A stretch of 64,000 nt of DNA from Paracoccus benzoatiresistens (GTDB taxonomy: Bacteria > Pseudomonadota > Alphaproteobacteria > Rhodobacterales > Rhodobacteraceae), in NCBI RefSeq assembly GCF_026913015.1, contig NZ_JAPTYD010000004.1, positions 1 to 64,000 of the forward strand, in the 5' to 3' direction. The translations under genes and the position numbers were made by a program. The notes under the pieces were generated by a model, which had not been told where the DNA came from, did not search any database, and saw nothing but the letters and a program-made list of their open reading frames with translations. How positions within the stretch are numbered: position 1 is the first letter of the stretch; every line of letters starts with the position of its first letter. Below, piece after piece: positions 15,438-25,122 of this stretch.

Positions 15438-16548
15438 ACTTCTCCAGCAAGGCCTGTATCTCGGTCATCAGCATGTCCATCAGGTCCGAGTTGATGGGCG
15501 CGCCTTCCAGCCGCAGGACATGGGCATTGCCGTCGCGGGCGCGGCGGATGGTGATGCCGCTGGTGGTCCTGATCGTCAGGTCGTCGATCCAGCCATATTG
15601 CACCGGCGCCTTGGTGCGGGGACGGCCGCCGCGGGCAGGGCTGCGGGGTGCGCCCTCGACCTGCGCAAGGACGGGTTCCAGCAGCAACCACTCTTCCTCG
15701 GCATCGCCCGGCGACCCGGCGGACAGCGCCTTGCGCAGCCGGGATTCGGCGCCCTCCCGCAGCGCCGCCGACAGGCGCAGGCCGCGCTTTTCGGTCAGCG
15801 CCTCGGGAAAGCGCAGCATGTCGCCCAGTTCCTCGAAGATCAGGGCGAAGGACCGGACCTTGGACCGCTTGGCCTTCGATCCGGTGGCGAACAGCCGGTT
15901 TACGGCATCCTCCACATTGGCAAAGGCGCCCTGATTGGCGGCGATCACGGCGATGCGGCCGCGCTCGAAATGGCTCAGTTCCTCGCGGACCTCGTTTTCC
16001 TCGACCATGGCGACAAAGGCGGCGTCCGCCTCGGCCTTGGGACGGATCAGGGCGCGGATCCGGTCGTATTTCGCGTCCCGCGTCAACTCGCGCAGCGCAC
16101 GGACGGCATGAAGCCGGCGATAACCCGACAGAAGGCCATAGCCCGCCTTCCGTCCCTCCGGCGTGCCAAGCGCGAAGACCTCGATCGGCAGGCGCAGTCC
16201 GTTGGCGGCAATGGAGAGGCGAAGTTCCTGCATCTCGTCCTCGCTCATGACCATTCGGTCACGGATCATCGCGCCTTCGTCGATCTGGTCCAGCGGCAGT
16301 TCCACGATCAGAAGTCCCTGCTCTTCGGCCTGGCGCAACCGTTCCGCATCGACCTGGTCGCGCGCCCGCGCGGCCCGCGCGTCGGCATCGCCCGCGGCGC
16401 TCAGCGCAGCGGTTTCGGCGGCCACCTGGGCGATCGGCGCGATGCCGGGACCGATTGAGGGCCGCCCCAGGGTTTCGCGGCGAAACTGTTCCTCGATCCG
16501 GGTCAGATCGTCGTTGCTGGGGGTTTCCAGACGCCTGCGCTTAACCAT
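15436..16548 (-). CDS. parB: ParB/RepB-family plasmid partition protein
   Basis: A 370-residue centromere-binding protein. The ParB nuclease-like N-terminal domain spans roughly residues 75-180 (LPLDQIDEGAMIRDR, LRLSIAANGLRLPIEV, GYGLLSGYRRLHAVRAL). The HTH region follows (ELSHFERGRIAVIAANQ, FATGSKAKRSKVRSFALIFEELGD). The C-terminal part probably dimerises. It acts with the adjacent ParA to segregate the replicon. Its start overlaps the parA end by eight bases, so the pair is one operon. A parS-like site lies in its own 5' coding region and another at its stop codon. Confidence 0.93.
   Translation of the reverse strand: MVKRRRLETPSNDDLTRIEEQFRRETLGRPSIGPGIAPIAQVAAETAALSAAGDADARAARARDQVDAERLRQAEEQGLLIVELPLDQIDEGAMIRDRMVMSEDEMQELRLSIAANGLRLPIEVFALGTPEGRKAGYGLLSGYRRLHAVRALRELTRDAKYDRIRALIRPKAEADAAFVAMVEENEVREELSHFERGRIAVIAANQGAFANVEDAVNRLFATGSKAKRSKVRSFALIFEELGDMLRFPEALTEKRGLRLSAALREGAESRLRKALSAGSPGDAEEEWLLLEPVLAQVEGAPRSPARGGRPRTKAPVQYGWIDDLTIRTTSGITIRRARDGNAHVLRLEGAPINSDLMDMLMTEIQALLEK
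16472..16486. promoter_or_regulatory. parS-like site 2 inside parB
   Basis: GTTTCGCGGCGAAAC, a perfect 15-base palindrome within the codons for about residues 21-26 of ParB. Identical in core to the copy at the parB stop codon. Confidence 0.75.
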
Positions 16549-17944
16549 TGGCCTTCTCCTTGCCAGCCTGCTCAGCCTGTTCCATCTGCAGATCGCGCCA
16601 CCAGGTGCCCAGGATCAGTTCCTTGACCTCGGCCCAGGTGCGATCAAAGGTCTCGCGGCCGCGGACATAGGTGTCGCGGTTGAACTCGCGGTAGTCCGCC
16701 TCGTAGATGCCGTTCACCTGCTCGCCGGCCTGGCCCACCATGGCCGTGACTTCCTGGCGGAAGGTGGTCATGAAATCGCCGAAATAGGCCTGGATGACAT
16801 TGGCAAGGTCGGTCTGCTGGGCGGCATCGAAGCGGGTGATGAGGGCGCGCACCGCATCCCATTCGAACTTCATCTCGGGCAGCCCCTCACGGCGACGGGC
16901 GGCGTTCTCGCCTTCCTCGACACTTGCGAAGGTCGAATAGAGCATGTCGAAGAACCGTCCCGTCGAGTCGAATTCCAGGAACGAGGCGCCAAGCGGCACC
17001 AGCAGGATATCGGCGGCAGCCAAGGCGTTGATCGTCAGGTAGCCAAGCGCGGGAGGAGTATCCAGGATGATGATGTCGTAATCGTTAACGATGCGATCGT
17101 TGGCCAGCGCGTTGCCAAGCGCGTCCCACAGGGGCCAGCCGCGCAACCCCATCCGCCAGACGGGCACCTGAAACTCGGCCCAGTACAGGTTCAGCTGCGC
17201 GCCCAGCAGGTCGATGTTCGTCCAGTGGGTGGTCTGGATGACATCGCGGGCGGTGATCTTCAGCGCCTCGGTCAGCGTCTCGTCGAAGGGCAGGGGGGCT
17301 TGACCCGCCGCCTCGCGGACGCGGTTTTCCTGCTGCAGGGCCAGGGCATAGTCCTTGGCGATCAGCGGGAAGGCCGTGGACCATTCGTCGGCCACCCGCC
17401 CCCCCATGATCGAGGTAAGGCTGCCTTGGCTGTCCAGATCGACCACCAGCACCTTGTAGCCGTCCAGCGCGGCCGACATGGCCAGATGCGCCGCCGTCGA
17501 GGTCTTGCCGACGCCGCCCTTGAAGTTCGCGACCGCGATGGTCTTGGCGGGCAGGCCCTCCGGACGCCACGGGCGGTATTCGCGCCCGGCGGCGCCTTCC
17601 GCGGCGAAATGGTCGCGCAGCCGCAGCACATCCTCGAGCGTGAACCATTTCGAGTTTCCCTCGCCGGTGCCCTGCGGCAGGTCCGGGAACTTGCGCAGCA
17701 CGCGGCGGAAGTGGGCGGGCGCAACGGGGATCAGGTAGCGGCAGATCTCCCATGTGGAAAAGCGGCGCAGGCGCTTCTGGCCATCGGGGGCATAGCCGCG
17801 CTCGGCAAGGTCCTGACGTCCGCGGGCGGCGAAGGCGGCGGCCTTGGCGAATCGGGCGGTGTCGATAGGATCGGACAGCCGCTTTGCCGCCCTGGCCGGA
17901 TCGATGTTGAAATAGGGGGGAAGGGGATCTTTGCCTGATGACAT
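16541..17944 (-). CDS. parA: ParA-family partition ATPase
   Basis: A 467-residue Walker-type ATPase of the long plasmid class. The N-terminal ~130 residues form a winged-helix-like DNA-binding extension (FSTWEICRYLIPVAPAHFRRVLRK). The deviant Walker A motif is KGGVGKTSTA at about residues 143-152. Walker A' is VLVVDLDSQGS and Walker B is DIIILDTPPALGYL. The N-terminal extension is typical of ParA proteins that also repress their own operon. Start ATG 17944 is chosen over an upstream frame extension because it gives MSSGKDPL. Transcription runs away from the origin. Confidence 0.94.
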   Translation of the reverse strand: MSSGKDPLPPYFNIDPARAAKRLSDPIDTARFAKAAAFAARGRQDLAERGYAPDGQKRLRRFSTWEICRYLIPVAPAHFRRVLRKFPDLPQGTGEGNSKWFTLEDVLRLRDHFAAEGAAGREYRPWRPEGLPAKTIAVANFKGGVGKTSTAAHLAMSAALDGYKVLVVDLDSQGSLTSIMGGRVADEWSTAFPLIAKDYALALQQENRVREAAGQAPLPFDETLTEALKITARDVIQTTHWTNIDLLGAQLNLYWAEFQVPVWRMGLRGWPLWDALGNALANDRIVNDYDIIILDTPPALGYLTINALAAADILLVPLGASFLEFDSTGRFFDMLYSTFASVEEGENAARRREGLPEMKFEWDAVRALITRFDAAQQTDLANVIQAYFGDFMTTFRQEVTAMVGQAGEQVNGIYEADYREFNRDTYVRGRETFDRTWAEVKELILGTWWRDLQMEQAEQAGKEKANG

Positions 17945-18031
17945 GTTACACTCTCGGCGATGTGCTGCTTGGACGCGGTGTTTTCGCAATCTATTGCACA
18001 TGACCCCGCGCAAGTGAATCGCGCAAGCGAG

Positions 18032-18361: not shown

Positions 18362-18454
18362 TTGCATTTCCGGAACACGCAACGCTGCGGTGCCCATGTG
18401 GCGATTGTCGGCGGGTACCCTCTGAGGCATAATCGCGAAAACAGGGCAGGACCG

Positions 18455-19648
18455 ATGGACGATATTCCGAGAGACCAGCTGAGTGGCGCCCTGCGCCGCG
18501 GCGCGGTCAAGAAGCACGTGGCGGCGATCCATGTGTCGGGCAAGCTGACGCTTCTGCAGCGCAAGCTGTCGAACGTGCTGCTGCTGAATGCCTATGACAC
18601 GCTGACCAGCAGCACGCGCCACCAGATCGACGCGCGCACCCTGTGCCTGATGATCGGCTACAACTCGAACGACATGGACACGCTGAAGCAGTCGCTGCGC
18701 GGCCTGGCCGAGACGGTGGCCGAATGGGACATGCTGGATGAAAAGGGCCAGCAGGAATGGGGCGTGTCCAGCCTTCTGTCCTATGCCAAGCTGAAGGGCG
18801 GGGTCTGCGAATACGCCTATTCCCCCGCGCTGGCCGAAAAGCTGCATGACCCCAAGGTCTTTGCGCTGATCAACCTCAACATCCAGCGCCGCTTCACCAG
18901 CGGGCACGCGCTGGCGCTCTATGAAAACTGCTACCGCTTCGTCAGGACCGGATCGACCGGCTGGTGGCCGCTGGAGCTGTTCCGGCGGCTGATGGGCGTG
19001 GACGGTTCGGCCTACTACGAGACCTTCAAGCACCTGAACGCCAAGATCATCAAGCCCGCCGTGGCGGAGGTGAACCGCACCAGCAACATCATCGTCACGC
19101 CCGAGACGAAGAAGACCGGCCGGGCCGCCACCGACATCCGCTTCCGGATCAAGGAAAACCCGCAGCTTGCGATCCTGGACATCGACGATGGCGAGGGCGC
19201 GCGCCACGGACCCGTCTATGCCCGGCTGCGCGCGCTTGGCGTGAGCGACCGCCTGGCCCGGCAATGGCTGACCTCTCACGGAGAGGAACAGGTGCTGGCC
19301 AAGCTTGCCTATGTCGAGGCGAAGGAAGGCGTGCGAAGCCGCATCGGCTATCTGAGCGCGGCGCTGGAGGGCGACGGGCGCACGGAAAGGGCAGGGGGGG
19401 CGCCCGCCCTGCCGGCGCCCGCACCCTCGCCCCGCGCCGAACGCCTGCGCCGGATCCTCGAGGCGGTGAAGGCGCGCACGCCGACGCAGCGCGATGCCGA
19501 CCGCCGCCTGTTCATGAGCCAGCTTCCCGAGGCGCGGCTGCGCGACGATTTCGAGCGGCATGGCTGGATGTCGCCCTTGAACGCCACGCGGATCGCCGGC
19601 TTCTGGCGCGAGATGGCGCCGGGCCTGTTCGACGGGATCGACGACTAG
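18455..19648 (+). CDS. replication initiation protein (Rep_3 / RepB type)
   Basis: A 397-residue plasmid initiator. Residues ~10-250 resemble the Rep_3 fold of two winged helices (LTLLQRKLSNVLLLNAYDTL, LALYENCYRFV, TGWWPLELFRRLMG, YETFKHLNAKIIKPAVAEVN). The C-terminal ~150 residues are Arg/Ala-rich and carry a second conserved block (MSPLNATRIAGFWREMAPGLFD). It should bind the 22-base repeats upstream and recruit the host helicase. Start ATG 18455 has a GCAGGA element and gives MDDIPRDQ. Divergent from parAB, a common layout for Rhodobacterales replicons. Some such initiators are called DnaA-like in the literature, so the exact compatibility class is uncertain. Confidence 0.85.
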   Translation: MDDIPRDQLSGALRRGAVKKHVAAIHVSGKLTLLQRKLSNVLLLNAYDTLTSSTRHQIDARTLCLMIGYNSNDMDTLKQSLRGLAETVAEWDMLDEKGQQEWGVSSLLSYAKLKGGVCEYAYSPALAEKLHDPKVFALINLNIQRRFTSGHALALYENCYRFVRTGSTGWWPLELFRRLMGVDGSAYYETFKHLNAKIIKPAVAEVNRTSNIIVTPETKKTGRAATDIRFRIKENPQLAILDIDDGEGARHGPVYARLRALGVSDRLARQWLTSHGEEQVLAKLAYVEAKEGVRSRIGYLSAALEGDGRTERAGGAPALPAPAPSPRAERLRRILEAVKARTPTQRDADRRLFMSQLPEARLRDDFERHGWMSPLNATRIAGFWREMAPGLFDGIDD

Positions 19649-19915
19649 CCGAGGGAAGCGCTCCGATCCGGATCTGCGCGCCGGGGGATGAAGGCGGCGC
19701 AGGGGCAATGACATCGGTTCCGTGTCGGCCCAGCGGCGTGATGACCGGAGGAACGGAGGGTTTCGCTGCTGGACCGACCGCTGCCAACCGGTCCGGCGCA
19801 AGGATGTTCCCGCAGAAAGGCAATCAGGCTGCGCGGCCGGCCGAAACGTCGCGCTTGGGAACATTGCACGGCGTTCGCCGTTCTGACGCGGGCATCATTG
19901 CGGGGGAATCGGCGG
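19649..19915. other. 267-base intergenic region with stress promoter at its 3' end
   Basis: No gene is seen between rep and the SDR gene. The only clear element is the sigma promoter match at 19858-19882. Confidence 0.5.
19858..19882 (+). promoter_or_regulatory. EcfG-type promoter (exact match) upstream of SDR gene
   Basis: GGAAC followed by 16 bases and CGTT, an exact match to the known ECF15/EcfG consensus GGAAC-N16/17-CGTT. The -10 element ends 33 bases before the SDR start ATG, a normal promoter distance. Confidence 0.75.
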
Positions 19916-21713: not shown

Positions 21714-21953
21714 TCAGCCTTGAGGCTTGCCGTTTTCCAGTTCGTCATACTGGCGACGGGCCAGTTCGGATTCGATCGTGTCGCGGTCCCCTTCCGGCGG
21801 GTCCTGTTGCAGCTGGTGCGCGGGGGTGTCATCCTCTCCGACCTCGGAAGAGGCCTGCTGCCAATGTTCGGCATGCTTGCCTTCGGGGCGGCCCTGCTCC
21901 TCCCACAACTGATGGGCACGCTGCCTTATCCTTTCCTCACGGTCTGTCGCCAT
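21714..21953 (-). CDS. DUF2934 small protein
   Basis: A 79-residue soluble protein starting MATDREERIRQRAHQLWEEQGRPEG, the hallmark of the DUF2934 family, often found near stress and catalase genes. ATG 21953 is selected over ATG 21959 because the AGAGGGAG site is then correctly spaced. A near-consensus EcfG-type promoter reading leftwards (21985-22009) lies just upstream. The C-terminal half is acidic and low in complexity. Molecular role unknown. Confidence 0.85.
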   Translation of the reverse strand: MATDREERIRQRAHQLWEEQGRPEGKHAEHWQQASSEVGEDDTPAHQLQQDPPEGDRDTIESELARRQYDELENGKPQG

Positions 21954-21968
21954 GGCCATCTCCCTCTT

Positions 21969-21994
21969 GGAACCACCCGGCAGCAACAGCCGTT
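21969..21994 (+). promoter_or_regulatory. EcfG-type promoter match, rightward
   Basis: GGAAC, 17 bases, CGTT: exact consensus halves with the longer allowed spacer. It overlaps the leftward promoter for the DUF2934 gene. The next rightward gene is the response regulator at 22241, about 245 bases away, so a long leader or a different target is implied. Confidence 0.5.
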
Positions 21995-22009
21995 GGTTCG
22001 AAATGTTCC
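21985..22009 (-). promoter_or_regulatory. near-consensus EcfG-type promoter for DUF2934 gene
   Basis: On the minus strand GGAAC, 16 bases, TGTT; one change from CGTT. The -10 element lies about 30 bases upstream of the DUF2934 start. Confidence 0.55.
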
Positions 22010-22240: not shown

Positions 22241-22819
22241 ATGACAAACAATTCGTTGCGGATACTGGTCGTCGAGGATGACTTCTTTGCCGCACAGAGG
22301 CTGGCAAACGAGATCCGTGCCCATGGCGACCATGTCGTGGGGCCTTTCGCGGATGTCCACGAGGCGATCCACCGCGTGGGCCTGGTGCAGGCCGCCATCC
22401 TGGATATCCGCGTGCAGGACGAGAATTCCTTTCAGCTGGCGGATTCCCTGACCCATGTGGGAATTCCCTTTGTCTTCCTGACCGGATACGACCGTTGCGT
22501 CATTCCGCCCCGCTTTTCGGGACGGGGCGTCTATACCAAGCCCAGTTGCGCCGCGCCCCTGCTGGACAGCCTGCATCGCGAACACGCGCGGATCGCCCAC
22601 CGGCAGGAGGATTCCCTGGAAACCGTGGTGATCGAGATGCTGCATCGGGCGCGCGGCATGATGCCGGACGAGGCCTCGGTCGAGCGGCTGGTCGAGGCGG
22701 TGCTTTTGCGCGCGATCCACGAACAGGCCGACGCGCCGCCCATCGAGGACCTGCACGGCTGGCTGTTTCACATGCTGGAGATCGAGTACCAGGAACGCGG
22801 CAAGACACATCTTCAGTGA
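22241..22819 (+). CDS. response regulator with C-terminal sigma2-like segment (reversed-PhyR candidate)
   Basis: A 192-residue protein. Residues ~5-120 are a receiver domain: acidic pocket E12/D13/D14, phospho-acceptor D55 in AAILDIRV, T81 in FLTGYD, K100 in YTKP. Residues ~128-185 are not a known output domain. By eye, residues 137-176 align without gaps to residues 52-91 (region 2) of the EcfG-type sigma factor encoded 300 bases away, with about 15 of 40 identities including ARG, LV, LLRAI and WLF. Canonical PhyR has a sigma-like domain first and a receiver last; this has receiver first and only a sigma2-like part. It likely acts as an anti-anti-sigma factor on the NepR-like proteins, which is inference. 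Convergent with the ecfG operon, 15 bases away. Confidence 0.8.
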   Translation: MTNNSLRILVVEDDFFAAQRLANEIRAHGDHVVGPFADVHEAIHRVGLVQAAILDIRVQDENSFQLADSLTHVGIPFVFLTGYDRCVIPPRFSGRGVYTKPSCAAPLLDSLHREHARIAHRQEDSLETVVIEMLHRARGMMPDEASVERLVEAVLLRAIHEQADAPPIEDLHGWLFHMLEIEYQERGKTHLQ

Positions 22820-22834
22820 CGTGCCGCCGGGCGG

Positions 22835-23005
22835 TCAGTGGTCTTGGCCCCTTCGGTCGGCCGCCTGCCGCTGCATGAGAACCTTGCGCAATTGCGCCGC
22901 AAGGTCCTGCAGCCGTTCAGGCACCCTCTCGCGCTGGAGCCTGTGTCCCCACTCCTCAAGCTCTGCATCCATGTCGCGTTCCGCTTCATAAGCCCCGGAA
23001 GGCAT
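22835..23005 (-). CDS. NepR-like anti-sigma factor candidate A
   Basis: A 56-residue protein starting MPSGAYEAERD. Its core (LEEWGHRLQRERVPERL then QDLAAQLRKVL) matches the NepR pattern of an amphipathic helix, a VPxR turn and a second helix with LxxLxxxL spacing. It lies 99 bases after ecfG on the same strand, the position expected of a cognate anti-sigma factor. Too short for routine gene calling. Its 28-residue core aligns gap-free with the second NepR-like protein at 23938-24102. Binding to EcfG and release by the response regulator are inferred. Confidence 0.72.
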   Translation of the reverse strand: MPSGAYEAERDMDAELEEWGHRLQRERVPERLQDLAAQLRKVLMQRQAADRRGQDH

Positions 23006-23104
23006 GCTCCAACCCTTTTTGGCGGCAAATGAGTGCCGGTTGATTGACGGTTCCGACCGATCCTGCACCCCGTGCCGCAGCGATGGTGGTTTCAAAAGAC
23101 ATGG

Positions 23105-23686
23105 CTAGAACTCGGGGTTCAGCATGTCGCGCAGGATGCGCCTGGCACGGCTGACGCGGCTCTTGATCGTGCCGATGTCGCAGTCCAGGATCACCGCCGC
23201 GTTGATATAGCTTTCCCCCAGGACCGAGATCAGCATCAGGGCCTCGCGGTAATGGGAGGGAAGCCGGTCCAGGGCGTGCAGCATCTCCTTGTGCCGCAGG
23301 TGCCATTCCTGGGTGGGCTGGCATTTGGGCAGGGCCGAGACACAGTCGATCTGCCCGATGGTTTCGCGGTTGACGCGCTTGCAGTTGTTGTAGAACCGGC
23401 TGCGCATGATGGTGAACAGCCAGGCGCGCAGGTTCGTGCCGGGCCGGTAGCTGTCGGCATATTCGATGGCGCGCAGCAGGGTTTCCTGCACCAGGTCGTC
23501 GGGATCCTGCGCCCCGCGGCACAATCCCCGCGCAAAGGCCCGAAGCGCGGGCAGATAGTCCAGGATGTCGTCCGACATGCCCGGCGCCGAACTGGTTCCC
23601 AGGACAGAGGCGGCATGGTGGGGAAGGGCCTGTCCCGTCCGGGGACGGGGCGCTGCAACGTCCAGGGAATCCATATGATCAGCCAT
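23105..23686 (-). CDS. ecfG: EcfG-type (ECF15) RNA polymerase sigma factor
   Basis: A 193-residue extracytoplasmic-function sigma factor of the alphaproteobacterial general stress type. Region 2 is at residues ~48-105 (LRAFARGL, DLVQETLLRAIEYADSY, GTNLRAWLFTIMRSRFY). Region 4 is at ~137-188 (LDRLPSHYREALMLISVLGESY, GTIKSRVSRARRIL). Start ATG 23686 is fixed by a perfect AGGAGG six bases upstream, giving a length normal for EcfG. Its own upstream region carries GGAAC-N16-GGTT at 23776-23800, suggesting autoregulation. It forms an operon with a NepR-like gene and faces a second NepR-like gene divergently. Confidence 0.92.
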   Translation of the reverse strand: MADHMDSLDVAAPRPRTGQALPHHAASVLGTSSAPGMSDDILDYLPALRAFARGLCRGAQDPDDLVQETLLRAIEYADSYRPGTNLRAWLFTIMRSRFYNNCKRVNRETIGQIDCVSALPKCQPTQEWHLRHKEMLHALDRLPSHYREALMLISVLGESYINAAVILDCDIGTIKSRVSRARRILRDMLNPEF

Positions 23687-23775
23687 GCGGCTCCTCCTGT
23701 GTTGCTTTGCCTCCGGGTTCCGGGACATGCACTTCTCGCCCCCGCAGCCATTCCATGCCGGTTGACGGCGTCCTG

Positions 23776-23800
23776 AACCGTCTTTCCGCATTATTGTTCC
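23776..23800 (-). promoter_or_regulatory. near-consensus EcfG-type promoter for ecfG operon
   Basis: On the minus strand GGAAC, 16 bases, GGTT (one change from CGTT). It lies about 90 bases upstream of the ecfG ATG and would make the sigma factor autoregulated, as is usual for EcfG. Confidence 0.6.
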
Positions 23801-23937
23801 CATTCGGGGCAAAAAAATATCACATTTTGGCAAGCCACAGTTTTCAGGGCACCATGATCGTCGTAAAAAGGAGGTCAGGCGCCGGTTTGCATCGTCACTT
23901 GCGCTTGTCGCGCCGGGTCAGCTTGAAGACAAGAATC

Positions 23938-24102
23938 ATGGACAACAACGACGACGGCCCCTTTGCCGACCGTGAGCCGGACCCTAGGCTGGCAGAGCTT
24001 CTGGGCGATGTCGGCGCGCAACCGATCCCGCCCCGCCTGAAGGCGCTTGCCGAGGAACTGAAGAGGACCCTGGCAGAGGCCGGCAAGCGCCGCGACGACT
24101 GA
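23938..24102 (+). CDS. NepR-like anti-sigma factor candidate B
   Basis: A 54-residue acidic protein. The segment LAELLGDVGAQPIPPRLKAL then AEELKRTL fits the NepR core (helix, PxPxR turn, helix) and aligns gap-free with the NepR-like protein downstream of ecfG, about 9 of 28 identical. It is transcribed away from ecfG and towards the Mn-catalase gene. ATG 23938 lacks a strong ribosome-binding site; an in-frame TTG at 23887 preceded by GGAGGT is an alternative start that would add 17 basic residues. Confidence 0.65.
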   Translation: MDNNDDGPFADREPDPRLAELLGDVGAQPIPPRLKALAEELKRTLAEAGKRRDD

Positions 24103-24175: not shown

Positions 24176-24200
24176 GGAACATCCGGGCGGTTTGGCTGTT
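24176..24200 (+). promoter_or_regulatory. near-consensus EcfG-type promoter for Mn-catalase
   Basis: GGAAC, 16 bases, TGTT, one change from consensus, with the -10 element 88 bases before the Mn-catalase ATG. Non-haem catalases are frequent targets of the general stress sigma factor. Confidence 0.6.
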
Positions 24201-24288: not shown

Positions 24289-25122
24289 ATGTTTTATACC
24301 GATAACAAGCTGCAATATCCCGTTCGGGTCGATACCCCCGATCCGCTGTTCGCGCGTGCCCTCCAGCAGGCCATCGGCGGGGTCGAGGGCGAGATCCGCG
24401 TGGCGATGCAGTATTTCTTCCAGGCTTGCGGCGCGCGCGGCAATCCCAAGTTCCGCGACCTTCTGATGAATACCGCGGCCGAGGAACTGGGCCATATCGA
24501 GATGCTGGCGACCGCCGTGGCCATGAACCTGGAAGGCGCGCCCCTGTCGATGAAAGAGGACATGGCGGCGGGCGACCGCGCCGTGGCCGCCATCATGGGC
24601 GGCATGAACCTCAAGAACCTCTTGTCCTCGGGCCTGTCGGCGATGCCGGTGGACAGCGACGGCGTGCCCTTCGACATGTCCCACATCTATGCCAGCGGCA
24701 ACATCGCCGCCGACATGACGGCCAATGTCGCCGCCGAGTCCACGGGGCGCACGCTGGCCGTGAGGCTGTACAACATGACGGACGATTCCGGCATGAAGGA
24801 CATGCTGTCCTATCTGATCGCCCGCGACACGATGCACCAGAACCAGTGGCTGGCCGCGCTTGAGGAACTGGGCGGCATGACCGGCGCCTTCCCGATCCCG
24901 AACAGCTTCCCGCAGGCGCAGGAAAAGACCGATTTCAGCTATGCCTATCTGGGCTTCCAGGCCGATGGCAGCGCGCCGGTTCCGGGCCGCTGGGCCGAGG
25001 GAACCTCGATCGACGGCAAGGGCACCTTCACCACGGGCAAGCTGCACCCGTCCGACCAGAAGCCCGACCTGGGGCTTGCCAAGCCCAACAGCGGCGCGCA
25101 GGCCGAACAGATCGCAGGCTGA
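24289..25122 (+). CDS. manganese (non-haem) catalase
   Basis: A 277-residue di-manganese catalase that dismutates hydrogen peroxide in the cytoplasm. The four-helix-bundle ligand motifs are visible: E in GGVEGEIRVAMQYFFQA, the E-x2-H pair in TAAEELGHIEM, a second E in NVAAESTGRTLAVRLY, and the H in ARDTMHQNQWLAALEEL. Start ATG 24289 gives the family-typical MFYTDNKLQYPV. A strong terminator follows. Upstream are the second NepR-like gene and a near-consensus stress promoter. The usual length and intact ligands indicate an active enzyme. Confidence 0.95.
   Translation: MFYTDNKLQYPVRVDTPDPLFARALQQAIGGVEGEIRVAMQYFFQACGARGNPKFRDLLMNTAAEELGHIEMLATAVAMNLEGAPLSMKEDMAAGDRAVAAIMGGMNLKNLLSSGLSAMPVDSDGVPFDMSHIYASGNIAADMTANVAAESTGRTLAVRLYNMTDDSGMKDMLSYLIARDTMHQNQWLAALEELGGMTGAFPIPNSFPQAQEKTDFSYAYLGFQADGSAPVPGRWAEGTSIDGKGTFTTGKLHPSDQKPDLGLAKPNSGAQAEQIAG

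Follow-up and report, generated by a model that had tools for sequence, protein, structure and literature searches.

We analysed a stretch of 64,000 nucleotides of a Paracoccus benzoatiresistens contig, called the window below, which carries the gene of a response regulator composed of a receiver (REC) domain followed by a sigma2-like domain. We refer to this regulator as REC-sigma2. Its open reading frame (ORF) of 192 amino acids (aa) lies at 22241..22819 on the forward strand and was assigned from its receiver and PhyR_sigma2 matches and from 39 aligned homologues. The genes that follow are, in order, those of a small NepR-like protein and candidate anti-sigma factor (NepR-like 1, 56 aa, beginning MPSGAYEAERD; 22835..23005, reverse strand), of an EcfG2-type extracytoplasmic function (ECF) sigma factor (193 aa; 23105..23686, reverse strand) and of a second candidate anti-sigma factor (NepR-like 2, 54 aa, beginning MDNNDDGPF; 23938..24102, forward strand), which is divergent from EcfG2. 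The sigma factor matches both Sigma70_r2 and Sigma70_r4_2 over the cut-off and has an AGGAGG ribosome site at its start. Its sequence is EcfG-like and it has an EcfG-type promoter match, its assignment to ECF15 being a comparison made without an ECF15 model. In the surveys described below, EcfG2-type denotes a score above 150 bits among the matches listed.

Domain architecture of REC-sigma2

The original prediction described a 192-residue protein starting at 22241, with the receiver first and then a C-terminal segment whose alignment with the neighbouring EcfG needs no gaps. The ORF and its Pfam matches agree with the former. As to the latter, a single BLASTP comparison gave one ungapped alignment over residues 137-188, with 16 of 52 positions identical (E=2e-5). 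The Pfam matches of the window protein alone are weak (Response_reg with E=0.0018 and PhyR_sigma2, PF22029, with E=0.016 over residues 137-179, both under the curated cut-off), and the claim was therefore tested on its relatives. The family alignment consisted of 39 distinct full-length REC-sigma2 proteins, 32 of them from Paracoccus and 7 from elsewhere. The receiver covers approximately residues 1-118 (22241..22594, forward strand) and contains E12, D13, D14, D55, T81 and K100. Among the 39 rows, D55 is kept in 38, E12 and D13 in 33 each, T81 in 34 (T or S in 36) and K100 in 35. With D55, the acidic pair, T81 and K100 in place here and in most rows, the receiver is predicted from its sequence to be phosphorylatable.

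The sigma2-like domain comprises residues 125-192 (22613..22816, forward strand), with three helices, and was recognised by Pfam, hhalign, a PDB sequence profile search, AlphaFold and VIA-align. At E<=1, PhyR_sigma2 was matched by 33 of the 39 C-terminal domains (best E=3e-8) and Sigma70_r2 by 7. The curated PhyR_sigma2 cut-off was exceeded by the relative in genome G051 (33.9 bits) and by the Ketogulonicigenium regulator (L214; 31.5 bits versus 27). A profile-profile comparison with sigma2, proposed as a check together with the original prediction, gave a match: against ECF sigma2, the C-terminal domains reached an hhalign probability of 96.9 and a score of 51.8 (31 core rows), and 100 column-shuffled copies scored at most 17.2. 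Against PhyR sigma2 the probability was 82.3 and the score 29.4, with shuffles at most 16.7. The reference sets had 15 PhyR and 15 ECF rows; one PhyR (L153) and one ECF sequence (L159) were missed by the cutting pattern and dropped. The best solved chain for the 39-domain profile was the RNA polymerase sigma factor 5uxx_A (E=5.5e-5), from a structure titled as a Bartonella RpoE-NepR complex. In the reverse direction, the C-terminal profile retrieved true EcfG proteins from the plasmid loci, with E values down to 4e-10. Sigma4 was indeed missing, as had been proposed: in hhalign the profile matched only the sigma2 stretch of full-length EcfG and PhyR alignments, and the ORF stops at 192 aa, right after the sigma2-like part.

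AlphaFold modelled the isolated C-terminal domain as three helices, with a predicted local distance difference test (pLDDT) of 93.9. This fits the published PhyR structure, in which sigma2 consists of helices 1-3 according to an excerpt of PMC12148442. In VIA-align, SigR came first (Z 9.9, root-mean-square deviation (rmsd) 1.9, 64 aligned), and RpoE-NepR (Z 8.0, rmsd 2.6, 66 aligned) and PhyR-NepR (Z 7.9, rmsd 2.7, 64 aligned) were also found. The top 13 chains, with Z from 9.9 to 7.9, were all sigma factors or PhyR, and the first unrelated chain had 5.7, level with the PhyR chain 4qic_C; by the program's own warning, a Z below about 13 may carry little meaning in the case of helical bundles. 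Foldseek gave no match at E<=0.001 for the isolated domain, its best seven rows being all sigma factors with E from 0.34 to 1.4, so that the claim on the fold rests on the VIA-align Z values together with the sequence profiles. On these grounds the C-terminal segment is predicted to adopt the sigma2 helical fold that the original prediction called for. Profile and predicted fold are thus found for the family, the window member alone being under the Pfam cut-off. Since the full-length model (pLDDT 88.0) had a predicted template modelling score (pTM) of only 0.63, the relative arrangement of the two domains was not used. The identities shared with EcfG are conserved among the homologues in part. 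L150 (33 of 39), V151 (36), L155 (33) and A158 (36) are kept, and so is L175 (36) of the WLF identity, whose W174 (18) and F176 (5) are not.

Distribution and origin of the family

REC-sigma2 regulators occur in Paracoccus and also in some alphaproteobacteria outside this genus, and they are often plasmid-borne. Homologues were found at 12 loci of named genomes (11 Paracoccus, 1 Tistrella), in 7 of 61 relatives and in 5 of 394 genomes of the taxonomic family. Within the genus Paracoccus, 25 of 125 genomes carry copies reaching into the C-terminal domain; the regulator list excludes the receiver-only rows of this search and includes one truncated copy (G539:C3). At the level of the class, such matches occur in 4 of 385 genomes (its own, G548, G773 and G051), or in 20 if receiver-only matches are included. 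Plasmid records add Ketogulonicigenium, Martelella, Mesorhizobium, Shinella, Ensifer and Sinorhizobium, and at least 80% of the query is covered in 32 of the 121 matching plasmid records. The 240-kb contig to which the window belongs is itself probably a plasmid or chromid, because genes of a ParA-type ATPase (16541-18013, reverse strand) and of a Rep3 replication initiator (18362-19648, forward strand) lie side by side on it.

Some further copies were observed. The same genome (G000) has a second REC-sigma2, 58% identical, on an 8.9-kb contig (C171, 748-1314), the far end of which carries a partial NepR-like ORF. The Paracoccus genome G539 has a regulator copy split in two pieces with several hundred bases between them (L118, 5850-7508). 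Genome G051 has two further PhyR_sigma2 matches above the cut-off (L171, 3249-3356, and L172, 3053-3178), each at the end of a long frame; inspection of these frames by eye showed no receiver.

In order to place the receiver, we compared it to known response regulators. Its best NCBIfam match was the single-domain regulator family PRK13435 (E=3.4e-9, far below the cut-off of that family), it is 30% identical to the single-domain regulator SdrG (5ieb), and it contains the PFxFxTGY motif of the single-domain regulators nicknamed FAT GUY. SdrG and PRK13435 thus have the same receiver type and motif, to which REC-sigma2 adds a sigma2-like domain. In a tree of 91 receivers, those of REC-sigma2 fell with single-domain regulators and the 15 PhyR receivers formed a separate 100/99 group; the tree has 118 columns for its 91 rows, the bootstrap is unsettled and the finer forks have few columns. 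REC-sigma2 needs two changes on this tree, with 36 rows in one group and three (L136, L137 and L140) apart, and two fusions, which are compatible with it, may have taken place. As for the C-terminal domain, 46 of 48 scored better with the ECF sigma2 profile than with the PhyR sigma2 profile, although PhyR sigma2 is itself divergent and the closeness to ECF may therefore partly reflect slower change.

Compared to PhyR, which serves alphaproteobacteria as anti-anti-sigma factor in the general stress response and whose sigma-like domain is N-terminal to the receiver and has both sigma2 and sigma4, REC-sigma2 has the reversed order (receiver 1-118, sigma2-like 125-192), sigma2 without sigma4, a receiver of another lineage and a C-terminal domain nearer to ECF sigma2. 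The part of the original prediction that took the protein for a PhyR with swapped order did not hold, and a permuted PhyR was rejected on the basis of the receiver tree and the C-domain scores. Because the receiver groups with single-domain regulators and the C-terminal domain scores better on the ECF profile, the simplest history looks like a new fusion.

NepR-like genes, EcfG2 and promoters

The two NepR-like proteins of the window represent two subtypes of one family, with an hhalign probability of 96.6 between them. This family aligned with NepR with a probability of 93 and a score of 32.2 (at most 15.5 in 100 shuffles), and its core pattern, L..L...EPIPxRLxxLAxxL, is common to NepR. Relatives of NepR-like 1 lie between REC-sigma2 and EcfG2 at three loci (L111, L112 and L114) and beside REC-sigma2 at another (L103), and a hypothetical protein is annotated at its place in Paracoccus sp. 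AK26. Relatives of NepR-like 2 adjoin EcfG2 or REC-sigma2 in many Paracoccus genomes. The NepR-like alignment (A5, 17 rows) was made of ORFs found by similarity in stretches centred on the regulator, and weaker hits were left out of the counts. Paracoccus gave 54 hits at E<=1e-9, of which 48 are no more than 1.5 kb away from EcfG2 or REC-sigma2; without the 17 training rows, a hand count gave 31 of 37 near (30 beside EcfG2 and 1 beside the regulator). A NepR-like ORF is present within 1.3 kb of the regulator at 18 of 39 loci, three of which are partial matches (L110, L138 and L139).

A strong NepR-like member was found in 40 of the 125 Paracoccus genomes, namely in 38 of the 43 with EcfG2 versus 2 of the 82 without it (p=4e-24, Fisher test on related genomes). 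Likewise, EcfG2 is present in 19 of the 25 genomes with REC-sigma2 versus 24 of the 100 without (p=2.4e-6, same test and same relatedness), and REC-sigma2 in 19 of the 43 EcfG2 genomes versus 6 of the 82 others. Since 24 genomes carry EcfG2 without REC-sigma2, EcfG2 and its NepR-like neighbour are the wider unit, to which the regulator is an addition in about half.

At the seven plasmid loci outside Paracoccus, a NepR-like ORF, weak in some cases, lies beside the regulator in six (L211, L212, L213, L214, L215 and L219; not L210) and an EcfG2-type sigma gene is present in five (L210, L212, L214, L215 and L219). The A5 profile alone found the ORFs of L212 (4.9e-8), L211 (3.8e-4), L215 (4.3e-4) and L214 (0.002); an extended profile, to which six rows including L211, L212 and L214 had been added, was needed to find those of L213 (7e-5) and L219 (1.2e-6). 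In Ketogulonicigenium (L214) the genes of the regulator, a NepR-like protein, EcfG and an HWE kinase stand in a row, and HWE kinases are near the system also in Martelella and on one Ensifer plasmid. On pSymB of Sinorhizobium meliloti 2011, the extended profile found a NepR-like ORF (L218, 6555-6761; E=6.5e-14) that adjoins an EcfG-type sigma gene, in a stretch for which the gene table lists no gene. The genome studied here also contains a canonical set of PhyR, NepR and EcfG1, so that a REC-sigma2/EcfG2 system would be a second, parallel circuit.

The EcfG promoter consensus is printed as GGAAC-N16-17-C/GGTT in the excerpt of PMC12148442. In the window, an EcfG-type promoter GGAAC-N17-GTT lies upstream of EcfG2 (23776..23800, reverse strand). 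Two more lie upstream of likely EcfG targets: one (24176..24200, forward strand) precedes the gene of a manganese (Mn) catalase (24289..25122, forward strand; PF05067, E=9.7e-83) and one (21985..22009, reverse strand) that of a DUF2934 protein (21714..21959, reverse strand; PF11154, E=4.3e-14). Another match (19858-19882, forward strand) is upstream of a short-chain dehydrogenase gene. The Mn catalase gene is near the regulator also in L112, L114, L135 and P. yeei, and the DUF2934 gene in L111, AK26 and Shinella. The loose pattern GGAACN{16,18}GTT has 11 matches in the window versus 2.64 expected (0 of 100 shuffles reached 11), the downstream gene having been inspected for only a few of them. 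The strict pattern GGAACN{15,17}CGTT has 4 matches versus 1.03 expected, and 4 of 100 shuffles reached that number. In the context loci, a promoter match lies within 450 bp upstream of 7 of 10 EcfG2 genes, at a background of 0.129 sites per kb per strand.

Proposed switch, alternatives and meaning

The computed basis for an interpretation consists of the order of the domains, a profile and a predicted fold that are both sigma2-like, the conserved phosphorylation residues, the NepR-like neighbours, the association with EcfG2, the promoter matches and the loss of two ECF-invariant residues. Like PhyR, REC-sigma2 joins a receiver with its phosphorylation residues to a sigma-like domain, and NepR-like, EcfG-type and HWE-kinase genes are found together at several of its loci. 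The best reading is that it works like PhyR yet is not a PhyR. With a probability of roughly three in four, we consider it a phospho-dependent sigma mimic that sequesters the NepR-like candidate anti-sigma factors and thereby frees EcfG2. A kinase of this strain, probably of the HWE type, would phosphorylate D55. The sigma2-like domain of the phosphorylated regulator would then bind one or both NepR-like proteins and pull them off EcfG2, and the freed EcfG2 would transcribe itself, the Mn catalase gene and other stress genes from GGAAC-N17-GTT promoters. Because the receiver comes first and sigma2 stands without sigma4, in a conserved form and beside EcfG and NepR-like genes, the distinct partner-switch design raised by the original prediction appears to be the best reading of domain order, homologues, predicted fold and neighbourhood.

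Several points weigh against a mimic of this kind. Neither NepR-like protein of the window was above the cut-off of the Pfam NepR model (PF18557), for which the pair is too divergent, and the link to NepR therefore rests on the profile comparison and on one sub-threshold hit, that of the L214 protein (E=4e-4, 20.4 bits, cut-off 25.7). No NepR-like ORF was seen within 1.3 kb of the regulator at 21 of 39 loci. Among the 25 Paracoccus genomes with the regulator, 6 have no EcfG2 and 7 have no strong NepR-like hit, and since the genomes are related, the Fisher values overstate independence. A crude motif scan identified no kinase in the window. According to an excerpt of PMC4598750, the PhyR-NepR complex superimposes on a complex in which the anti-sigma factor is wrapped round sigma2 and sigma4; REC-sigma2 offers only sigma2, so its affinity for NepR-like proteins could be low.

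The regulator could instead be a phospho-controlled mimic directed at the canonical NepR of the chromosome, or at NepR of both types, by which plasmid-borne signals would enter the canonical general stress response. The presence of the canonical set in this genome and the six EcfG2-less genomes are in favour of this, but the gene neighbourhood ties the regulator to the NepR-like and EcfG2 genes, and we regard it as unlikely. In four of the six EcfG2-less genomes the receiver lysine K100 of the regulator copy is replaced by R (L116, L117, L121 and L125), as if decaying; since these copies form one related group, this gives no more than a hint of decay where the partner is absent. It is improbable that the receiver acts alone, like single-domain regulators, and that the sigma2-like domain plays no part in mimicry, being a dimerisation or scaffold remnant. 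Although the receiver is of the single-domain type and the third helix is less conserved, the domain is constrained, seven columns of the 39-row alignment being conserved at 90% or more, and is linked with NepR-like genes.

Split sigma factors exist, as an excerpt of PMC8103513 states, and with its predicted sigma2 fold REC-sigma2 might be one half of such a factor, bringing sigma2 to RNA polymerase while sigma4 comes from another protein, as in the SigO/RsoA pair. However, position 149 is R in 38 of 39 REC-sigma2 rows versus D in 15 of 15 ECF rows, and position 152 is E in 36 of 39 versus Q in 15 of 15, which makes a split sigma factor very improbable. We take both positions to contact core polymerase. 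The combination of sigma2, sigma4 and the DDLVQ segment of a functional ECF factor is not found in REC-sigma2, which is unlikely to work as a sigma factor because the two residues are replaced and sigma4 is absent. An ANTAR-type antiterminator, with a receiver followed by a three-helix RNA-binding domain, was suggested by the fold search with the full-length model, which matched EutV and Rv1626 (whose C-terminal domain we take to be ANTAR) by architecture, and was dropped as hardly credible: ANTAR is not among the 15 families listed for the 39 domains at E<=1, 33 of which match PhyR_sigma2, and the isolated domain aligns with sigma2.

The portion of the open-licence PMC literature that was searched gave no description of a receiver-first, sigma2-only regulator. 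Non-canonical EcfG/ECF15 paralogues such as R. etli EcfG2 are EcfG-type sigma factors often found on plasmids, as is EcfG2 here. For R. etli EcfG2, the excerpt of PMC3892343 reports no regulator or anti-sigma gene nearby, and the extended profile found no NepR-like ORF in its 35-kb stretch; in the window, in contrast, both regulator and NepR-like genes adjoin EcfG2. The same excerpt states that the widespread extra EcfG copies are not satisfactorily explained and cites work that found no NepR-EcfG2 interaction in C. crescentus and Sphingomonas.

With a family of candidate small inhibitors named beside many extra EcfG copies, and a candidate switch beside a part of them, in named strains that are in culture, the control of these copies becomes testable. 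We consider evenly balanced the wider proposal that receiver-controlled sigma mimicry evolved at least twice, once in PhyR and once by a single-domain regulator capturing an ECF sigma2, perhaps repeatedly. This would have given a plasmid-spread switch of HWE kinase, REC-sigma2, NepR-like protein and EcfG2, parallel to the canonical response, and would explain the control of many non-canonical EcfG paralogues. The analysis suggests a second means of activating stress genes, one that probably evolved separately. If this is true, a single sigma2 domain is enough for mimicry of a sigma factor, and such mimicry has an origin separate from that of PhyR.

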